Source: a virus. From it: DNA of 23,215 nucleotides. The notes below the pieces were generated by a model. It had not been told where the DNA came from. It saw only the letters and a program-made list of their open reading frames with translations, and made no database searches. Every line of letters starts with the position of its first letter. Position 1 is the stretch's first letter. Location: positions 1 through 23,215 of IMG/VR virus record IMGVR_UViG_3300044627_002345. One strand, given 5' to 3'. Positions 10,139-19,824 of the stretch are shown one piece after another. The translations under genes were made by a program, and so were the position numbers.

Positions 10139-11074
10139 ATGCAAGTAGGACTGGTATCAATGATGGGAAATGTAGGCGCTACTTTGAATAGTCAAGGCGG
10201 TGGATACGGACTCATCCAAACAAAAATGTTATGGGACAACCATCCTCACGATACTGTAGACGTAAATCCTCCACCATCAACGTGGGGGAATTACGATCTA
10301 CTTTATATTTGTGAAGGAGTTAATTTCGTAGCAGGATCTTTTAATGTTCCTGGTGGACCTCAACCACTTCATACTGAAAAAATGAAAGCTATCGCGGATT
10401 TTAAGGGCGAGCTTAGATATTCCAACAGTGTATTTGACTTCAGTAAGTTCAATCAAAGACTAAAGATCGAAGCCACTTTTCCAGAAACAAATAGAATCGC
10501 TTTTTACAATACTTTTTTAGCTCACGGTTTAGAAAGTAGAAAAGGTGTCATCGGAGATTCTCACGCTTTATCTGTGTGGAAACCTGAACACTCTTTAGAT
10601 TTTACAGCTGGTAGAACTTTACATGGATTTTTAAGAAGAGAAACAGTAGAAGAAATCAATAGTAGATTCGACGAAGTTACTTTATACTTTGGTAATATTG
10701 ATTTGCGTTTCCATTTAATGAGACAAGAAAATCCACAACAAGCAACAGCAGACCTATTTAATCGTTACGTAGACTTCGCTAAACAATTAAAGAAAGCAAC
10801 ATTAGTAGAATTATTACCAGTAGAACATGAATCAAGAAAAATTCCTGGAACTGGTTTATATAAGAAACAACCTTTCTTTGGCACAAGATCAGAAAGAATG
10901 CAATTAAGAGAAATCGCTAACGAGATCATCAACAATTCAGGATTAGAAGTAATTCAATGGCCAACAGAGTGGATAGACGAAGATGGTACTAAGATGCTAG
11001 ATATTTTAGAAATGAAACAATCAGTGCATTTGAGACCTAAGCACTATCCGTATCTTACAGAAATCACAAAATAA
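10139..11074 (+). CDS. SGNH/GDSL-hydrolase-like protein, 311 aa
   Basis: The protein resembles the SGNH/GDSL esterase fold: a GVIGDSH segment (GDSH at 139-142, candidate nucleophile S141), a strand followed by YFGNIDLRFHL (N186 in the block III position), and a C-terminal SVHL (H297) where the catalytic His of block V would be. The Asp normally three residues before that His is Gln294 here, so the acid is missing or placed elsewhere. The first 135 residues look like a separate region opening with GLVSMMGNVGATLNSQGGGYG. There is no signal peptide, so it should be cytoplasmic or virion-bound. It could act on acyl or acetyl esters, or be a non-catalytic relative. It starts a three-gene run with a lipoprotein and a PLP-like protein. 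Confidence 0.5.
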   Translation: MQVGLVSMMGNVGATLNSQGGGYGLIQTKMLWDNHPHDTVDVNPPPSTWGNYDLLYICEGVNFVAGSFNVPGGPQPLHTEKMKAIADFKGELRYSNSVFDFSKFNQRLKIEATFPETNRIAFYNTFLAHGLESRKGVIGDSHALSVWKPEHSLDFTAGRTLHGFLRRETVEEINSRFDEVTLYFGNIDLRFHLMRQENPQQATADLFNRYVDFAKQLKKATLVELLPVEHESRKIPGTGLYKKQPFFGTRSERMQLREIANEIINNSGLEVIQWPTEWIDEDGTKMLDILEMKQSVHLRPKHYPYLTEITK

Positions 11075-11785: not shown

Positions 11786-12673
11786 ATGTTTTTAAACAAA
11801 GCAACAGATGAATCTAATTTAGACATGTCAGATGGTAGAGACTTAAACTACTATCTTGACATGACTAAAGATTACAAACACGATTTTACATTTAAAGTAA
11901 AAGACGTAGAAGGCTTTAAAGTTGTCGATGATGGAGAATTCCAATTCGGAACTAAAGCAAAAATGGCAGACTTCTTCATATCTCAAGTAAAAGAAGATGC
12001 GATGGTTTATGTTGCACCAAGAACAGGTTACGCTCCTTATTCTTTGTGTCATTTAGCAAAGAAGTACAATAAAAAATTGTATCTAGTTATGCCAGCTTCT
12101 AAAGAGGCATCAGAGCACCAGTTAACAGCAATAGAAAATGGTGGAATTCCAATGTTTACTAGAATACCTGCAATGCCAACAGCAAATATTTGGGCAAAGC
12201 AATTCGCAGAAAAAATTGGAGGAAAGTATTTACCTTTTGGATTAAAGCACGAAATGGTGGTTGCTGGTGGAGTTAGAGTATTTTACGATAACTTCAAAGA
12301 CACCGATATTGAAACCATGTGGAGTGTATTCTCTACTGGAGTTTTATCTCGCACTTTACAGATCGCGCTACCAAAAACTAAATTCAATGCTGTGGCCGTG
12401 GCAAGAAACATTCAAGAAGGAGAACTTGGTAGAGCTAAATTCTACACTCACGACAGAGCGTTCTTAAAACCTTCAAGGATACAGACTCCTTTTGATTCTA
12501 TACAAACATACGATGCAAAAGGTTGGGAACTCCTAAAGCAACATGGGCAGCAAGGGGATTGGTTTTGGAACGTAGCAGGAAATATGCCTAAACCTACAAT
12601 AAAACCTAGTGACATCGATTCAAGTCGCGAGTGGGGAGACTTTAAAGATTTTGAAAAGCACTACAAAGATTAG
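11786..12673 (+). CDS. Protein resembling fold-type II PLP enzymes (ACC deaminase/tryptophan synthase beta-like)
   Basis: The order of segments resembles the ACC-deaminase branch of fold-type II PLP enzymes: FGTKAKMADFF (53-64; K57 at the place of the PLP lysine in GNKxRK), a strand and loop MVYVAPRTGYAPYSLCHLAKK, a strand KKLYLVMPA, then GGKYLPFGLKHE and a later FSTGVLSRTLQIAL segment matching the phosphate-binding GTG loop region. The length of 295 aa is near the family norm (~330). No signal peptide is present. It begins 3 nt after the lipoprotein gene. A substrate cannot be named. PLP enzymes occur in phage DNA hypermodification pathways, and a dCMP hydroxymethylase-like gene lies nearby, but the link is speculative. 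It may also be a non-catalytic relative. Confidence 0.45.
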   Translation: MFLNKATDESNLDMSDGRDLNYYLDMTKDYKHDFTFKVKDVEGFKVVDDGEFQFGTKAKMADFFISQVKEDAMVYVAPRTGYAPYSLCHLAKKYNKKLYLVMPASKEASEHQLTAIENGGIPMFTRIPAMPTANIWAKQFAEKIGGKYLPFGLKHEMVVAGGVRVFYDNFKDTDIETMWSVFSTGVLSRTLQIALPKTKFNAVAVARNIQEGELGRAKFYTHDRAFLKPSRIQTPFDSIQTYDAKGWELLKQHGQQGDWFWNVAGNMPKPTIKPSDIDSSREWGDFKDFEKHYKD

Positions 12674-12709: not shown

Positions 12710-13015
12710 ATGAATATACTACTTAAAGCAAACGAAATCGTATTCGAAAGAAACGAAGAAAAGGAGCGTATGTATGGCCCTTTTCAAGAAGGCATGCAAG
12801 AAGCAGCCAAGATTGCATCTTTATTATCAAGAAAGGAGATCACTACAGTTGATATGTACAATTGTATGTTAGCCCTAAAGTTATCAAGAGCATCTTATAA
12901 TTACAAAGAAGACAATTATTTAGATTTAGTTGCGTATATTGCATCACTAAACGACTATCAAAACAATGTACAGAATGAACATTCAAAAGACAAGAAACGT
13001 AAAAACACCAAGTAG
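12710..13015 (+). CDS. DUF6378-like phage protein, 101 aa
   Basis: A small helical protein with the pattern ERMYGPF...AAKIASLL...ITTVDMYNCMLALKLSRASYN...DNYLDLVAYIASL, which I recognise as the phage/prophage family DUF6378. The conserved YG, D-x-x-x-x-M-x-x-x-K-x-S/A-R and D-x-x-x-Y elements are all visible. The helical layout with acidic positions recalls MazG-like pyrophosphatases, but that relation is not shown here. The end (HSKDKKRKNTK) is basic and overlaps the start of the dUTPase gene by 41 nt, so the two are probably translationally coupled. A role in nucleotide metabolism is suggested by its neighbours only. Confidence 0.65.
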   Translation: MNILLKANEIVFERNEEKERMYGPFQEGMQEAAKIASLLSRKEITTVDMYNCMLALKLSRASYNYKEDNYLDLVAYIASLNDYQNNVQNEHSKDKKRKNTK

Positions 13016-13403
13016 AGGAACTGGCTTATCAGCAGGTTTAGACTTCTACGTACCAGAAGATTTTCAAGAAACTACTATCCACACAGGAGAATCAGTTTTA
13101 ATTCCTTCAGGTATTAGAGCGCACGTTCCATCAGGTTATGCGTTAATTGCATTTAATAAATCAGGTGTAGCTACTAAGCAAAGCCTTTCAGTAGGAGCAT
13201 GCGTAGTAGACGAAGACTACGAAGGAGAAATTCACTTACATTTAATCAATGTAGGAAGATCACATACAACCATTAAACCAGGACAAAAGCTAACTCAGTT
13301 TATTTTAATTCCTGTAAGTTATATGGACGTACACGTATTAGAAGAATTGCCAGATAGAAACACTGAGCGTGGAGCTGGTGGATTTGGATCAACAGGGTTA
13401 TAA
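12975..13403 (+). CDS. dut: Deoxyuridine 5'-triphosphate nucleotidohydrolase (trimeric dUTPase)
   Basis: All five dUTPase motifs are in order in this 142-aa protein: I SAGLDFY (19-25, D23), II NKSGVA (61-66), III GACVVDEDYEGE (74-85, with D79 and D81), IV KPGQKLTQFIL (101-111) and V RGAGGFGSTGL (132-142), which forms the glycine-rich lid. It hydrolyses dUTP to dUMP and pyrophosphate, keeping uracil out of DNA and supplying dUMP. Motif II has Asn-Lys where Pro-Arg is common. I choose ATG 12975 because the MNIQKTRN start matches the usual first strand; ATG 12966 would add three residues. The gene begins inside the preceding gene. It stands with dCMP deaminase and the hydroxymethylase-like gene in one block. 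Confidence 0.93.
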   Translation: MNIQKTRNVKTPSRGTGLSAGLDFYVPEDFQETTIHTGESVLIPSGIRAHVPSGYALIAFNKSGVATKQSLSVGACVVDEDYEGEIHLHLINVGRSHTTIKPGQKLTQFILIPVSYMDVHVLEELPDRNTERGAGGFGSTGL

Positions 13404-13412
13404 AAAAATGAT

Positions 13413-13991
13413 ATGAAAAATTTAATAGTTATAGGTCATCCCAATAAAAAAAGTTTCTGCTACAATGGTATCATGAAAACTATCAAAGAAACTTTAAAAT
13501 CTAATAAAGAGGAAGTGTGCGTAATTGATCTCTATAAAGACAATATAACGTTTGATTTCCCAAAAGATAAAGTTCAAAGATATAAAGACCTTATTACATG
13601 GGCTGATAGAATTTATTTTATATCTCCTGTTTGGTGGTTCAGATGCACGCCTGCATTAGAATCGTTCTTCGATCAAATATTCACGCCTGGTTTTGCATAT
13701 AATTTTAAACCGATAACAAGAGTTTATGGTATACCAAAACCTTTATTAGGTGACAAAAAAGTTAGAACGTATTTAACTCATGGTGCTCCAGCATTACCCG
13801 TATTAATTTTATACTTTAATTCAGTTAAATTAAGATTAGTTATGGGTGTTTATTCTTTTGTATTCGGTTGGTTCAAAACAAAAACAAGACAGTTTTGGAG
13901 TGTGCCTTTTATTTCTCAAAATGAAAGATTAGTATATTTGGAAAAAGTAAAAGAGGACATTAAAAAAGACTTAACGTTTTTTACAAAATAA
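13413..13991 (+). CDS. NAD(P)H-dependent flavin oxidoreductase, flavodoxin-like fold (NQO/KefF-type)
   Basis: The 192-aa protein fits the flavodoxin_2 family of FMN/FAD quinone reductases: an N-terminal strand and loop LIVIGHPNKKSFCYN (flavin phosphate site), then FISPVWWFRCTPALESFFDQIFTPGFAYNF (about 68-97), close to the family's P-x-Y/W-W-x-x-P-A-x-L-K-x-x-D-x-V-x-x-x-G-F-A-Y pattern, and a later strand with THGAP. The expected reaction is two-electron reduction of quinones or related acceptors by NAD(P)H in the cytoplasm. Its residence between dUTPase and dCMP deaminase is odd; it could serve redox balance during infection or a base-modification step, but neither is shown. It ends 3 nt before the next gene. 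Confidence 0.75.
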   Translation: MKNLIVIGHPNKKSFCYNGIMKTIKETLKSNKEEVCVIDLYKDNITFDFPKDKVQRYKDLITWADRIYFISPVWWFRCTPALESFFDQIFTPGFAYNFKPITRVYGIPKPLLGDKKVRTYLTHGAPALPVLILYFNSVKLRLVMGVYSFVFGWFKTKTRQFWSVPFISQNERLVYLEKVKEDIKKDLTFFTK

Positions 13992-13994
13992 TAG

Positions 13995-14405
13995 ATGAAT
14001 AAACAACAAAAGTTAGATAAAACATTTATCAACATCGCAAAAGAAATAGGTTCTTTGTCATACTGCACCAGATCAAAAGTCGGTGCAGTATTGGTGAAGG
14101 ACGGTAATGTAATAAGTTTTGGGTATAATGGCACACCAGCTGGAATGGACAATGGTTGCGAAGAAAATAATGTTACCAAAGACGAAGTTATTCACGCGGA
14201 AATGAATGCCATATTGAAAGCTGCCAAAAGCGGTAACGCCGTCGACGGTAGCACCCTATACTTAAGTTTATCTCCGTGTAAAAATTGTTGTAAATTAATA
14301 GTTCAATCAGGTATTAAACGTGTAGTATACTTAGAAGAATACAGAGATTTATCGCCTATTGAATTTTTATCTAAATTTATACAAGTAGAAAAATATGACA
14401 TATAA
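13995..14405 (+). CDS. Deoxycytidylate (dCMP) deaminase
   Basis: A 136-aa zinc deaminase converting dCMP to dUMP. The zinc site is complete: HAEMNA with H67 and proton-shuttling E69, and SPCKNCC with C95 and C98. The GYNGTPAGMDNGCEE segment (43-57) is typical of dCMP deaminases rather than cytidine or tRNA deaminases. The C-terminus overlaps the next gene by 11 nt, so synthesis of both enzymes is probably coupled. T4 likewise carries both a dCMP deaminase and a dCMP hydroxymethylase, so the two can coexist and divide the dCMP pool. Confidence 0.92.
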   Translation: MNKQQKLDKTFINIAKEIGSLSYCTRSKVGAVLVKDGNVISFGYNGTPAGMDNGCEENNVTKDEVIHAEMNAILKAAKSGNAVDGSTLYLSLSPCKNCCKLIVQSGIKRVVYLEEYRDLSPIEFLSKFIQVEKYDI

Positions 14406-15033
14406 AAACGCCACAGTCGCATTCGAATTACTATTCAGCGATATTAACGCCAACGGAGAATCATTCGCTGGTACTAAAGCCAAGTTCAACGTTTCATTTA
14501 CACTACAAGACGTAAGCAACAAAACTGTTACCACGCCTCAACGTAAGTTCAACGAAGACTACGCTGAATACGAATGGAATTGGTACCTTAAAGGCGATCG
14601 TGATGCTAGTGAAATAGCTGAACGCGCTAAGATATGGAAACAGATGATGGTTCCTGGTACTGCAGAAGTAAACTCTAACTATGGTTATTTTTGGAAACTA
14701 AATGATCAATTGCAAAGAGCAATCACAGAATTACGATTCAATCCAGAAAGTAGAAGAGCGATCGTAGTACATTATGATATCAACGAATTAGATAGATACA
14801 AGTATGATACTCCATGTAATGACGTACTTAATTTCTATATCAAAGACGGTAAATTAGAATTAACTGTATTCGCAAGATCTATAGACTTAGTATACGGTTT
14901 CTGTAACGATCAGTACACATTTGCTAAGCTTATGGAAATGGTAGCTTATCAGTTAGAAATTCCAGTAGGAGAAATGCATTGGATGGTAACCAACTTACAC
15001 ATCTATCCAAGACATTACGACATGTTAAAATAA
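14395..15033 (+). CDS. dCMP hydroxymethylase-like enzyme (T4 gp42 type, thymidylate synthase superfamily)
   Basis: The fold and motifs are those of thymidylate synthases: NSNYG (93-97), SRR (119-121), nucleophile C141 in TPC, RSIDLVYGF (161-169) and LHIYPRH (201-207). The residue that binds the pyrimidine ring is Asn in dUMP-specific synthases; here the aligned residue is D172 in GFCND, as in T4 dCMP hydroxymethylase (GFRND, D179). Other segments also follow gp42 from memory: IW-x-Q...GE/AEVNSNYG, NP-x-SRR-x-I and RS-x-D-x-V-x-GF. It should therefore transfer a one-carbon unit from methylene-tetrahydrofolate to dCMP. The length is 212 aa against 246 in T4. An unusual thymidylate synthase is the alternative. 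Confidence 0.8.
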   Translation: MTYKNATVAFELLFSDINANGESFAGTKAKFNVSFTLQDVSNKTVTTPQRKFNEDYAEYEWNWYLKGDRDASEIAERAKIWKQMMVPGTAEVNSNYGYFWKLNDQLQRAITELRFNPESRRAIVVHYDINELDRYKYDTPCNDVLNFYIKDGKLELTVFARSIDLVYGFCNDQYTFAKLMEMVAYQLEIPVGEMHWMVTNLHIYPRHYDMLK

Positions 15034-15038
15034 AAGTT

Positions 15039-15518
15039 ATGATAGCAACAAAATTATCAAGAGAGTTTTTAGAAGAGCAATTACTAAAGTTGACGCCAAA
15101 GAGATACAATCAATTTGTGTGGTGGAGAAGGTACGAAGTTAGACAGACCTTATCAGAAAAGTCTCCTTTGCATTCTAAAATAGTTAACGGTGATTACGAA
15201 CACTCTGATTATTACTATCAAGCGCAAATGGAAAATTATCTCTTAGAAGACAAGATCAAAGACATCAAGTACTTTGAAGATCAGTTAGAGCATAGAAGCT
15301 TATTCGGAGCCAGATGGAAGAGACTAATTGACGATTATGAAAAGGATGAGAAAGAAATAATAAGAAAGATGAAGAAGGACTTCAGAGCCACTTTTGGTAT
15401 AGCTGGTGATGAATTAGAGCTTATTATGGAAGACTTTGACGGTACGACTTTAGATTTATACACCCACGTAAAAGAGCTTACCAGAGAGCGCAGAATGAAA
15501 AACTTACAATTAATATGA
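15039..15518 (+). CDS. Hypothetical protein rich in charged and aromatic residues, 159 aa
   Basis: A soluble, mostly helical protein with many Glu, Lys, Arg, Tyr and Trp residues (e.g. FVWWRRYEVRQTL and a long charged helix about residues 68-120). No signal or membrane segment is seen. The ATG at 15039 is preferred over an in-frame ATG at 14979 that lies inside the upstream gene, because it follows that gene's stop by 5 nt and has the AAGTTATG context seen at other starts. It overlaps the next gene by 4 nt (ATGA). Family not recognised; probably a phage-specific protein acting with its downstream neighbour. Confidence 0.65.
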   Translation: MIATKLSREFLEEQLLKLTPKRYNQFVWWRRYEVRQTLSEKSPLHSKIVNGDYEHSDYYYQAQMENYLLEDKIKDIKYFEDQLEHRSLFGARWKRLIDDYEKDEKEIIRKMKKDFRATFGIAGDELELIMEDFDGTTLDLYTHVKELTRERRMKNLQLI

Positions 15519-16392: not shown

Positions 16393-16488
16393 GTGTTACG
16401 ACAATATATGAATATACAATACAAAATAAATACGTATAATTCTCAATATCGATTGCAATTGCGATCTAACTTTTTATCAACATACAAG

Positions 16489-16520
16489 AACGCGGTGGTC
16501 CAAATGATCCCGCGTTTTTT
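16489..16520 (+). terminator. Terminator or attenuator before the receptor gene
   Basis: AACGCGG (16489-16495) pairs with CCGCGTT (16510-16516), with an inner GGTC/GATC extension across a single bulge and a CAAAT loop; a T run continues to 16520. It has all features of an intrinsic terminator, yet lies only 25 nt before the receptor ATG with no promoter between, which points to conditional readthrough. Confidence 0.8.
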
Positions 16521-16545
16521 ATTTTTTAACAAAAACAAAACAAAC

Positions 16546-19500
16546 ATGAAAAAAGCGATTTTATCGTTAGTTCTTTCTGCGTTTGCTTTGGTAGGATTCG
16601 GTCAAGTTACCTCATCCACCATTTCAGGCGTAGTCAAGAATGAAAAGCAGGAAGTGTTAGGTGGAACTACGGTTCACGCTGTTCACGTCCCAACAGGTAC
16701 TCAGTACAAGACAGTGACAAACAAAATGGGTGTGTACGTTTTACCTGCTGTAAGAGTAGGTGGTCCTTACACTATCCACGCAACTTTTGTAGGATACAAA
16801 ATGGGCGAAGTAAAAGAAGTTAGCACTCAATTAGGCGTTACTTCTAACGTAGATTTTTCTCTAATCGATGAGAAGACTGCTCTTAAAGAAGTAGTTGTAG
16901 TAGGAACCAGAAATAATCTTTTTTCTAAGGAAAAAACTGGAGCTGCTCAACAATTTTCTCGTAGAGAATTGCAATCTGTGCCAATCACAGGAGCTAGAAC
17001 TATCGATGGTATTACAAAGTATAATCCATTCGGTAACGGTAACTCATTCGGAGCACAAGATTCTCGTTTGAATAACTTCACTATTGACGGATCTCAATTT
17101 AATAACAACTTCGGTTTAGGATCTTCTGCTCAAGCGGGTGGTAGAACTGGAGCAAGCGCTATTTCATTGGATGCGATTGATCAATTACAAGTTAACGTTG
17201 CGCCTTTCGATATTCGTCAATCAGGATTTACTGGTGCAGGTATCAACGCTGTAACAAGATCAGGTACAAATGAAATTGAAGGATCAGTTTATCAAACGCA
17301 AAGAGACAATAGTTCTACTTACGTTGGTAACAATGCAAGAGGTACAAAAATTACTCCTGCTAAATTTGATGAAAAAGTGCAAGGTTTCCGTTTAGGCGCA
17401 CCAATTATTAAAAACAAATTATTTATTTTTGGTAACTATGAAGGTATTCAAAGAACTGAACCAGGCACAACTTGGACATCTACAGGTTCTCCATTACCAG
17501 GTTCACAAGTAAGTAGACCAACTTTCCAACAATTGACTGACCTTTCTAAATTTATGAAAGAGAAGTTTAATTATGAAACTGGTCCATTTGAAGGATATTC
17601 TAATACAAACACGTCTAATAAATTCTTAGTTCGTGTTGACTGGAATATTAACGCAAACAATAAATTGACTGCTCGTTATGTGTATCATAATTCTGAAGCG
17701 CAAATCAATATTTCAAATTCACAATCAGCCGGTTTCGGTAATAGAACACAGAACATCAATGCGATGAGTTTCCAAAATAGTGGTTATACTATTCAGGACA
17801 ACACTCGTTCAGCGGTATTGGAATTAAACTCTAAGATTTCAAATACGTTATACAATAACTTAATTGTATCGTATGATAAGCAAATTGAGAATAGAGGTTA
17901 TATGTCTCAAATGTTCCCAACGATTGACATCAAAGAAGGTTCAACTACGTTAACTTCTGTAGGATTCGATCCATTCACTCCAGGTAATAAGTTAGATTAT
18001 AATACTTTTAATGTAACTAACAATTTAACAAAATATGCTGGTAAGCATACTTTAGTTGGCGGTTTCAACTTTCAAAAGTATCAATCAAATAACTTATTCT
18101 TCCCTGCATCTAATGGTGTTTATATTTTCAATAGCTTAGCAGATTTCTACACCGCGGCTAATCAATCATTAGCAAATGGTGGTAAACCATCCGCATTTGC
18201 TCCAGCTCGTTTTCAGTTTAGATATTCTGCATTACCAGGAGCAATTGAACCAATGCAAACTTTAAAATCAAATAGATTAGACTTATACTTACAAGACGAG
18301 TACAATGCAACTAGAGATTTAAAATTGACTTTTGGTATTAGAGCAAACATTATTGATTTTGAAAATACTGCATTAGAAAATCCAGCAGTAACAGCAATGA
18401 CTTTTGCAAACGGTGAAAAATGGAATACGGGTGTAATGCCTAAGATGCAAGTATTATTTGAACCAAGATTAGGTTTCAACTACGACTTGAAAGGACAAAA
18501 GAAAACTCAATTTAGAGGTGGTACAGGTGTATTCACAGGTCGTCCTCCTTATGTATTCTTATCGAATCAAATCGGTAACAATGGAGTGTTAACTGGATTT
18601 ATTGACGTAAGCGGTACTGCAGCGGCACAATATGGTTTCACTGCTGACCCTAACAAGTACTTTATTCCATCGACTCCAACTTTGCCTTCAACATTTGATT
18701 TAGCATTAACAGATCCTAACTACAAATTTCCTCAAGTTTGGAAAACAAATTTGGCAATTGATCAAAAGTTACCATTCTTTGGATTAGTAGCAACAGCTGA
18801 ATATTTGTACAATAGAACATTGAATGCGGTTCATTACTACGAAGCTAACTTAAGAGCTCCAGTTGGAACTTTAGGCGGAGTGGATAACAGACCTCGTTTT
18901 GGTGGTACAGATGCTACAGTAAGAGTAAATAACAATGTGAGTAGAGCAGCAGTTCTTACAAGTAGAAACGGAGCTTATCACGAATCATTGACATTGAAAT
19001 TAGAGAAGCCTTATCAAAAAGGTTTATGGGGATCATTTGCTTGGACTACAGCTAACTCAAAAGACTTTATGAGTGCAGGTTCAATCGCTAGTGGTTCATG
19101 GCAGTCAGCGTTATCAGTTGCTGGTAACAACAATTTAGATTTGTCATTCGCAGACGCATTTGTTAAAAACAGATTCGTAGGTTTATTAGGTTACAGAATT
19201 GAATACGGTTCTAAATACGGCGGAGCTACTACAATCACTTTAGGTTACGTAGGTCAGCAAGGCAATCCATTCTCTTATATCGTAGCAGGCGACTTAAATG
19301 GTGATAGAGTAAATAATAATGATTTAATTTACGTTCCTAAAGAATGGAATGAAATTAGATTCGCGCCATTAACAGTTGGTACAAGAGTATATACAGAAGC
19401 AGAACAACAAGCTGCATTTTGGAATTTTGTAAACCAAGACGATTATTTAAAAACTCGTAATGGTAAATACGCAGAAAGAAATGGCGGTTTATTACCGTAC

Positions 19501-19824
19501 TTGCATAGATTTGACTTATCAGTAGCTCAAGACATTTTTGTTAAGATTGGTGGAAAGAGAAATGCTTTCCAAATCAGAGCAGATATCTTGAACTTTGGTA
19601 ATATGATTGATAATAAGTTTGGAGTATCTCAAAGAGCAACTGCTCCTCAAATCTTGAATTTTGTAAGCAGAGATGCTGTAACAAATGTTCCAACATTTAG
19701 ATTGGCAACTCAAAGATTGACTGATGGCTCTACTATTTTAGTAAGAGATTCTTATCAGTACAATTCATCAGTATTTGATGTATGGTCAGCACAATTAGGT
19801 ATTAGATACATTTTTGGTAGATAA
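16546..19824 (+). CDS. TonB-dependent outer-membrane receptor, Oar-like, with carboxypeptidase-regulatory-like domain
   Basis: The 1092-aa protein has a signal peptide (1-20, ending FGQ), a carboxypeptidase-regulatory-like domain (about 25-108; TISGVVKNEKQEVLGGTTV), a linker EVVVVGTR (115-122), a plug domain (about 130-250) and a long beta-barrel ending in LGIRYIFGR, an aromatic-rich BAM signal. DLNGDRVNNNDLIYVP near the end is typical of Oar-like receptors of Bacteroidetes. It would sit in the outer membrane and import or bind a large substrate using TonB energy; the ligand is unknown. I choose ATG 16546 because the frame extended to GTG 16393 crosses the terminator hairpin and lacks a signal peptide. 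The gene is bracketed by terminators. Codon choice looks like that of its neighbours, so a very recent transfer is not evident. Such a gene beside replication genes is highly unusual. Confidence 0.9.
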   Translation: MKKAILSLVLSAFALVGFGQVTSSTISGVVKNEKQEVLGGTTVHAVHVPTGTQYKTVTNKMGVYVLPAVRVGGPYTIHATFVGYKMGEVKEVSTQLGVTSNVDFSLIDEKTALKEVVVVGTRNNLFSKEKTGAAQQFSRRELQSVPITGARTIDGITKYNPFGNGNSFGAQDSRLNNFTIDGSQFNNNFGLGSSAQAGGRTGASAISLDAIDQLQVNVAPFDIRQSGFTGAGINAVTRSGTNEIEGSVYQTQRDNSSTYVGNNARGTKITPAKFDEKVQGFRLGAPIIKNKLFIFGNYEGIQRTEPGTTWTSTGSPLPGSQVSRPTFQQLTDLSKFMKEKFNYETGPFEGYSNTNTSNKFLVRVDWNINANNKLTARYVYHNSEAQINISNSQSAGFGNRTQNINAMSFQNSGYTIQDNTRSAVLELNSKISNTLYNNLIVSYDKQIENRGYMSQMFPTIDIKEGSTTLTSVGFDPFTPGNKLDYNTFNVTNNLTKYAGKHTLVGGFNFQKYQSNNLFFPASNGVYIFNSLADFYTAANQSLANGGKPSAFAPARFQFRYSALPGAIEPMQTLKSNRLDLYLQDEYNATRDLKLTFGIRANIIDFENTALENPAVTAMTFANGEKWNTGVMPKMQVLFEPRLGFNYDLKGQKKTQFRGGTGVFTGRPPYVFLSNQIGNNGVLTGFIDVSGTAAAQYGFTADPNKYFIPSTPTLPSTFDLALTDPNYKFPQVWKTNLAIDQKLPFFGLVATAEYLYNRTLNAVHYYEANLRAPVGTLGGVDNRPRFGGTDATVRVNNNVSRAAVLTSRNGAYHESLTLKLEKPYQKGLWGSFAWTTANSKDFMSAGSIASGSWQSALSVAGNNNLDLSFADAFVKNRFVGLLGYRIEYGSKYGGATTITLGYVGQQGNPFSYIVAGDLNGDRVNNNDLIYVPKEWNEIRFAPLTVGTRVYTEAEQQAAFWNFVNQDDYLKTRNGKYAERNGGLLPYLHRFDLSVAQDIFVKIGGKRNAFQIRADILNFGNMIDNKFGVSQRATAPQILNFVSRDAVTNVPTFRLATQRLTDGSTILVRDSYQYNSSVFDVWSAQLGIRYIFGR

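Follow-up and report, generated by a model that had tools for sequence, protein, structure and literature searches.

The record under study is a 23-kb window (the whole 23,215-nucleotide stretch of viral DNA analyzed), and an open reading frame on its plus strand at 14395–15033 translates without a stop to 212 amino acids. Pfam matches, alignment, and conserved residues mark its product as a predicted dCMP hydroxymethylase, similar to T4 gp42 and with a thymidylate synthase (TS) fold. Its surroundings were compared across 80 IMG/VR loci that were fetched via the hydroxymethylase gene, with some of the contigs cut. The start of the gene is overlapped by 11 bp by a plus-strand gene for a 136-amino-acid dCMP deaminase (13995–14405; Pfam dCMP_cyt_deam_1, E = 3.9e-27, and MafB19-deam), which is present in 80/80 relatives. 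Further upstream on the same strand are genes for a dUTPase with canonical motifs (12966–13403; Pfam dUTPase, E = 1e-23; NCBIfam TIGR00576 above cut-off; 67/80 relatives) and for a DUF6378 protein predicted to form four helices (12710–13015; Pfam PF19905, E = 1.2e-12; model pLDDT 84; 78/80 relatives). A 159-amino-acid protein is encoded downstream of the hydroxymethylase (15039–15518, plus strand; 69/80 relatives). The gene between the dUTPase and the dCMP deaminase encodes a flavodoxin-like protein or NAD(P)H oxidoreductase (13413–13991, plus strand; Pfam Flavodoxin_2, E = 5.1e-23); it occupies this place in only 10/80 relatives and is therefore outside the core module.

Several smaller observations concern these neighbors. 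The last 50 bases of the DUF6378 gene also belong to the dUTPase reading frame as listed (12966–13015), whose real start may lie a few codons downstream. We considered DUF6378 as a possible dCTP pyrophosphatase; its predicted model gave no convincing fold match, and its sequence matched no solved structure. Farther out, the product of 10139–11074 carries SGNH-hydrolase-like motifs (GDSH, GNID, and VH), is found in 47/80 loci, and is related to the N-terminal part of a 795-amino-acid protein of Aeromonas T4-like phages. On the other side, 16393–19824 encodes an outer-membrane beta-barrel protein of 1143 amino acids with a carboxypeptidase-regulatory-like domain, shared by only 8/80 relatives.

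The 14395–15033 product matches Pfam Thymidylat_synt (E = 1.8e-28) as well as PHROG thymidylate synthase families. We aligned it using MAFFT with T4 gp42, RB69, E. coli ThyA, SPO1 gp29, Pseudomonas phage Ab18, Bosavirus enzymes, and others. Identity is 27% to T4 gp42, 26.5% to SPO1 gp29, 25% to ThyA, and 29.6% to a Bosavirus enzyme, and in a phmmer search with the window protein bacterial thymidylate synthases ranked higher than T4 gp42. The C-terminal tail of ThyA is absent from the window protein: 8 residues follow its conserved tyrosine (Tyr204), compared with 28 in T4 gp42, 55 in E. coli ThyA, and 61 in the enzyme of Bosavirus DoCa10.

A first-pass annotation of this DNA had placed Asp172 at the base-selecting site, and the alignment bears this out. 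Asp172 aligns with E. coli Asn177 and T4 Asp179, and among 84 tblastn matches from the loci it is kept in 83, as are Asp138 (83/84) and Ser94 (83/84); Cys141 is kept in 84/84. The remaining hallmarks of the fold are also all present, namely the catalytic cysteine itself (Cys141), Glu60, Tyr96, the paired arginines Arg120/Arg121, and His202/Tyr204. In T4 gp42, cytosine is selected by Asp179 and water is activated by Asp145 with Ser94, a pair that separates hydroxymethylases from TS, and the D145N mutant yields no 5-hydroxymethyl-dCMP (5hm-dCMP) (PMC6400193). Hydroxymethylases are recognized by an acidic residue, Asp or Glu, placed three positions ahead of the catalytic Cys together with a Ser or Thr at the position of T4 S94 (PMC6400193). 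The window protein has Asp138, the counterpart of T4 D145, three residues ahead of Cys141 and Ser94 at the second position, which form a putative water-activating pair, in addition to an Asp at the T4 D179 site. In MilA, Ala176 and Lys133 are tied to ribose preference (PMC5175136); the window protein instead carries Ser162 and Arg121, as in deoxyribonucleotide enzymes, with MilA being outside the alignment and mapped via conserved motif positions. The annotation had also cited three surrounding motifs as gp42-like. Two of these stand, since NSNYG is identical to T4 and GFCND resembles T4 GFRND. The third, NPESRR, resembles T4 NPDSRR, but ThyA carries DPDSRR, and this motif therefore does not discriminate gp42 from ThyA.

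We extended this comparison to a 12-residue active-site signature (window positions 60, 94, 96, 120, 121, 138, 141, 142, 162, 172, 202, and 204) in 104 aligned proteins and found that it splits by known chemistry. The pattern ESYRRDCNSDHY is identical in 78/104 proteins (the window protein and 77 relatives), and ESYRRDCTSDHY is found in T4 gp42, two Enterococcus phages, HHU4, and BF503P2 gene 42. With this single pattern in 78 proteins and D172 in 83/84 matches, Asp172 is neither a chance substitution nor a sequencing error. ThyA has Pro at 94, Leu at 138 (in the MAFFT alignment; the position is a gap in the 104-protein alignment), His at 142, and Asn at 172. The dUMP hydroxymethylases SPO1 gp29 and Ab18 have Ala or Gly at 94, Asp at 138, and Asn at 172, and the enzymes of Bosavirus and PaMx28 have Asn at 138, Pro at 142, and Asp at 172. 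Within the reference set, positions 94, 138, 142, and 172 thus sort the enzymes that make dTMP, 5hm-dUMP, 5hm-dCMP, and the 5-methyl-dCMP type of product.

The protein could still prove to act on dUMP, as either a thymidylate synthase or a dUMP hydroxymethylase, a reading that we regard as highly improbable. The neighboring genes encode two dUMP-producing enzymes, dCMP deaminase and dUTPase, and most relatives have no separate ThyA or ThyX on their available contigs (no ThyX scored above cut-off in the contigs of the window clade searched), so that dTMP would otherwise have to come from the host ThyA. T4, however, pairs a dCMP deaminase with gp42, and there too the deaminase and dUTPase yield dUMP for thymidylate synthesis. 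The residues also argue against this reading, as an Asn occupies the column of Asp172 in every ThyA and in both dUMP hydroxymethylases aligned. SPO1 gp29 shares with the window protein the Asp three residues before the catalytic Cys but differs in its Asn at the base-selecting site and its Ala at S94.

Furthermore, some relatives encode both kinds of enzyme. A second high-scoring TS domain occurs in three relatives (G003, G004, and G012), in one of which (G004) its Pfam score equals that of the first. In the other two, the second enzyme is a canonical ThyA, with the Asn, Leu, and His pattern and a C-terminal IKAPLSN, and lies alongside the gp42-like gene. Another relative (G018) has the gp42-like gene plus a ThyA-like fragment at the contig end. 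At least three relatives with the gp42-like gene therefore have a thymidylate synthase gene in addition (complete in two and cut at the contig end in another), and the two-gene relatives retain the Asp version next to the canonical Asn version. In a superfamily tree built with IQ-TREE, a check that the first-pass annotation had proposed, the window family did not fall inside ThyA, the placement named there as speaking against its claim. ThyA formed a clade of its own (100/99) that contained neither the window family nor the other modified-base enzymes, and an AU test rejected a grouping of the window family with ThyA (p = 0.012). Because several branches of this tree are very long, that of T4 gp42 among them, it does not tie the window family to T4 gp42 in particular. 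At the level of sequence, these comparisons establish the fold, the diagnostic residues, their conservation, and the separation from ThyA.

A different enzyme with Asp at the base-selecting site is the dCMP methylase of 5-methylcytosine phages of the Xp12 type, in which Asp selects dCMP and the transferred carbon is reduced to a methyl group. For this type we used three reference enzymes (two from Bosavirus and one from Pamexvirus PaMx28), with genus-mates in Bosavirus standing in for Xp12 and the methylase function of all three inferred from Xp12. Like the window locus, the Bosavirus enzymes have a dCMP deaminase nearby; the window protein is slightly more similar to one of them than to T4 gp42; and, in work cited by PMC8670742, the N-to-D change at the base-selecting site by itself converts a thymidylate synthase to a dCMP methylase. 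The three reference enzymes nonetheless have Asn in place of Asp138 and a Pro following the catalytic Cys, retain a long C-terminal tail, form their own clade in the tree, and are encoded near a dihydrofolate reductase (DHFR) gene. The window protein, with Asp138 and Ser94 and without the tail, is quite unlikely to be such a methylase.

Together, Asp172, Asp138, Ser94, the absence of the tail, the ThyA found in relatives, the tree, and the fact that the reference enzymes of other types each differ at a diagnostic residue indicate that 14395–15033 most likely encodes a dCMP hydroxymethylase. The synthesis of hydroxymethyl-dCMP that had been predicted from the base-selecting residue is thus supported by several active-site positions, by the tree, and by relatives with a separate ThyA. 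We consider it likely that the enzyme works like T4 gp42 and that its 5hm-dCMP is used in phage DNA, and we are more confident of the specificity alone than of the two combined. The phage DNA probably contains modified cytosine, as the annotation had proposed, and the activity of the enzyme is inferred from published T4 gp42 mutants and structures. The enzyme type is already known, and the window protein is another case of it. It shares with T4 gp42 (PDB 1b5e, 6a9b, and 6l18) the counterparts of Glu60, Ser94, Tyr96, Asp145, Cys148, and Asp179 (PMC6400193), the NSNYG motif, and the lack of a ThyA-type tail, and it differs in its low identity, in its length (212 compared with 246 amino acids), and in having Asn, where T4 has Thr, after the catalytic Cys.

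In the mechanism that we propose, Cys141 would attack C6 of dCMP while Asp172 recognizes the cytosine ring and protonates N3, and methylene-tetrahydrofolate, activated through Glu60, would give one carbon to C5. Water held by Asp138, Ser94, and Tyr96 would then add to the exocyclic methylene, replacing the hydride transfer of thymidylate synthase, and the products would be 5hm-dCMP and tetrahydrofolate. More tentatively, a nucleotide kinase, possibly that of the host, may phosphorylate 5hm-dCMP, which may then replace cytosine in phage DNA and so protect it against restriction, with the adjacent dCMP deaminase and dUTPase perhaps feeding dUMP to a thymidylate synthase. The final base could be either bare 5-hydroxymethylcytosine (5hmC) or a further elaborated form.

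The relatives searched gave no DHFR match; T4 and the Bosavirus with dCMP-methylase-type enzymes do have one. DHFR recycles the dihydrofolate that methylation produces, whereas a hydroxymethylase leaves tetrahydrofolate unoxidized, and its absence therefore counts toward a hydroxymethylase. This evidence is weak because G003, G012, and the 160-kb immuto record carry ThyA and are likewise without a detected DHFR.

The annotation had expected a kinase and a glycosyltransferase beyond the window, and in their T4-type forms neither was found in relatives of 136–183 kb. Neither a dNMP kinase of the T4 gp1 type nor a T4 beta-glucosyltransferase was found in the window, in G017, G018, G009, and G006 (contigs of 136–183 kb), or in shorter relatives, with the caveat that these records may be incomplete. 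The first of these relatives, G017 (174 kb), matches the window's first 13 kb at 90.8% identity and ends inside the dUTPase. No thymidylate kinase or AAA_28 kinase matched above cut-off in G006, G009, and the shorter relatives, and one sub-threshold AAA_28 match was seen in G016. A motif scan for small P-loop reading frames in the large contigs returned UvsX-like, PhoH-like, and a few unclassified proteins, none clearly a nucleotide kinase; G005 and G016 also have small P-loop reading frames. These searches covered known families, and unrecognized families or missing pieces could escape them. The rest of the pathway is therefore not detectably T4-like.

The lack of a recognizable 5hm-dCMP kinase in the large relatives would fit a scenario in which 5hm-dCMP is made but not put into DNA, for instance so as to deplete the dCMP pool or to disturb nucleotide-based host defence. 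Host kinases or unrecognized phage proteins could, however, phosphorylate 5hm-dCMP, and MetaGPA links Asp-type enzymes to contigs that were physically selected for cytosine-modified DNA (PMC8670742); we judge this scenario distinctly improbable. In that study, the TS proteins encoded on phage contigs with modified cytosine are marked by Asp at position 177 and are accompanied there by dCMP deaminase and MafB19-like deaminase domains (PMC8670742). The window locus matches this arrangement in its Asp at 177 and in the adjoining deaminase domains. It departs from it at the next step, as a carbamoyltransferase makes 5-carbamoyloxymethylcytosine in the MetaGPA system (PMC8670742) and we found such a gene in just two relatives from the window clade, among glycan genes.

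We rejected two candidates for a second step. The carbamoyltransferase, as in MetaGPA, is present in G006, G009, and BF503P2 and was not found in either G017 or G018; in the first two it sits among GlcNAc glycosyltransferase and FkbM-type genes and is probably glycan-related. Glycosyltransferases that relatives encode just downstream of the hydroxymethylase were considered as 5hmC-specific, but immuto has them too, with only ThyA in the 42 kb examined. Among other phages, the Enterococcus phage enzymes with matching residues are encoded near a T4-type beta-glucosyltransferase. Gene 42 of Bacteroides fragilis phage BF503P2, annotated as a deoxycytidylate 5-hydroxymethyltransferase, is 41% identical to the window protein, has the same diagnostic residues, and has a dut gene nearby. 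That locus (L002 14645–17921) differs in that it also encodes a carbamoyltransferase, a P-loop protein of the AAA_28 type, and another TS homologue, which is divergent and has Leu at the Glu60 position.

The predicted PLP fold-type II enzyme-like protein (11786–12673, plus strand; phrog_7093) is encoded just upstream of the hydroxymethylase in 74/80 loci. Its AlphaFold model (pLDDT 87) matches the folds of ACC deaminase, D-cysteine desulfhydrase, and threonine deaminase (Z about 21), and Lys57 is invariant in an alignment of 40 rows. Among 59 further loci fetched through the PLP-like gene, 43 carry the hydroxymethylase within 4 kb, and the remaining 16 contigs stop within 2.3 kb downstream of the PLP-like gene. 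The isolate immuto yielded no homologue of this gene. The association of the two genes raises a further reading, in which the hydroxymethylase performs the first step of an undescribed cytosine hypermodification and the PLP fold-type II enzyme attaches or processes an amino-acid-derived group on hydroxymethylcytosine, as nucleotide or in DNA. The PLP-like gene is a candidate for a further modification step; a likeness in fold by itself shows no function, and we consider the hypermodification reading unlikely. Erythrobacter phages carry a homologous PLP-like domain as an insertion in DNA-methylase proteins. In one of them, ZS04, the host protein appears to be a ParB/DNA-methylase; its Pfam matches cover PALP and N6_N4_Mtase only, and the ParB part is our reading of its N-terminus.

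The annotation had called the trait uncommon in phages of Bacteroidetes, which finds no support in that form, with the reservation that host identity is indirect: a scan of viral contigs gave at least 599 matching stretches, and Bacteroides fragilis phages carry the enzyme. The literature searched contained no papers on these B. fragilis phages or on hydroxymethylcytosine in flavobacterial phages. Bacteroidota are the likely hosts. The window DNA polymerase is closest to that of Flavobacterium phage immuto (55%), the window encodes the outer-membrane beta-barrel protein described above, and MAG contigs with relatives are labelled Saprospiraceae and Flavobacteriaceae, and also Aliivibrio, Halieaceae, Clostridia, and Verrucomicrobiales. 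The prediction of modified cytosine extends to a group of T4-like phages that is large, common in the environment, and probably infects Bacteroidota. A disguised cytosine would help these phages evade bacterial defences; if present, it would also influence which restriction and CRISPR systems are effective against them and would bias enzyme-based sequencing. By DNA polymerase, immuto is the nearest isolate, and it has genes for 7-deazaguanine DNA modification together with ThyA; these 7-deazaguanine genes were not detected in the window's relatives, which suggests that related phages disguise different bases.
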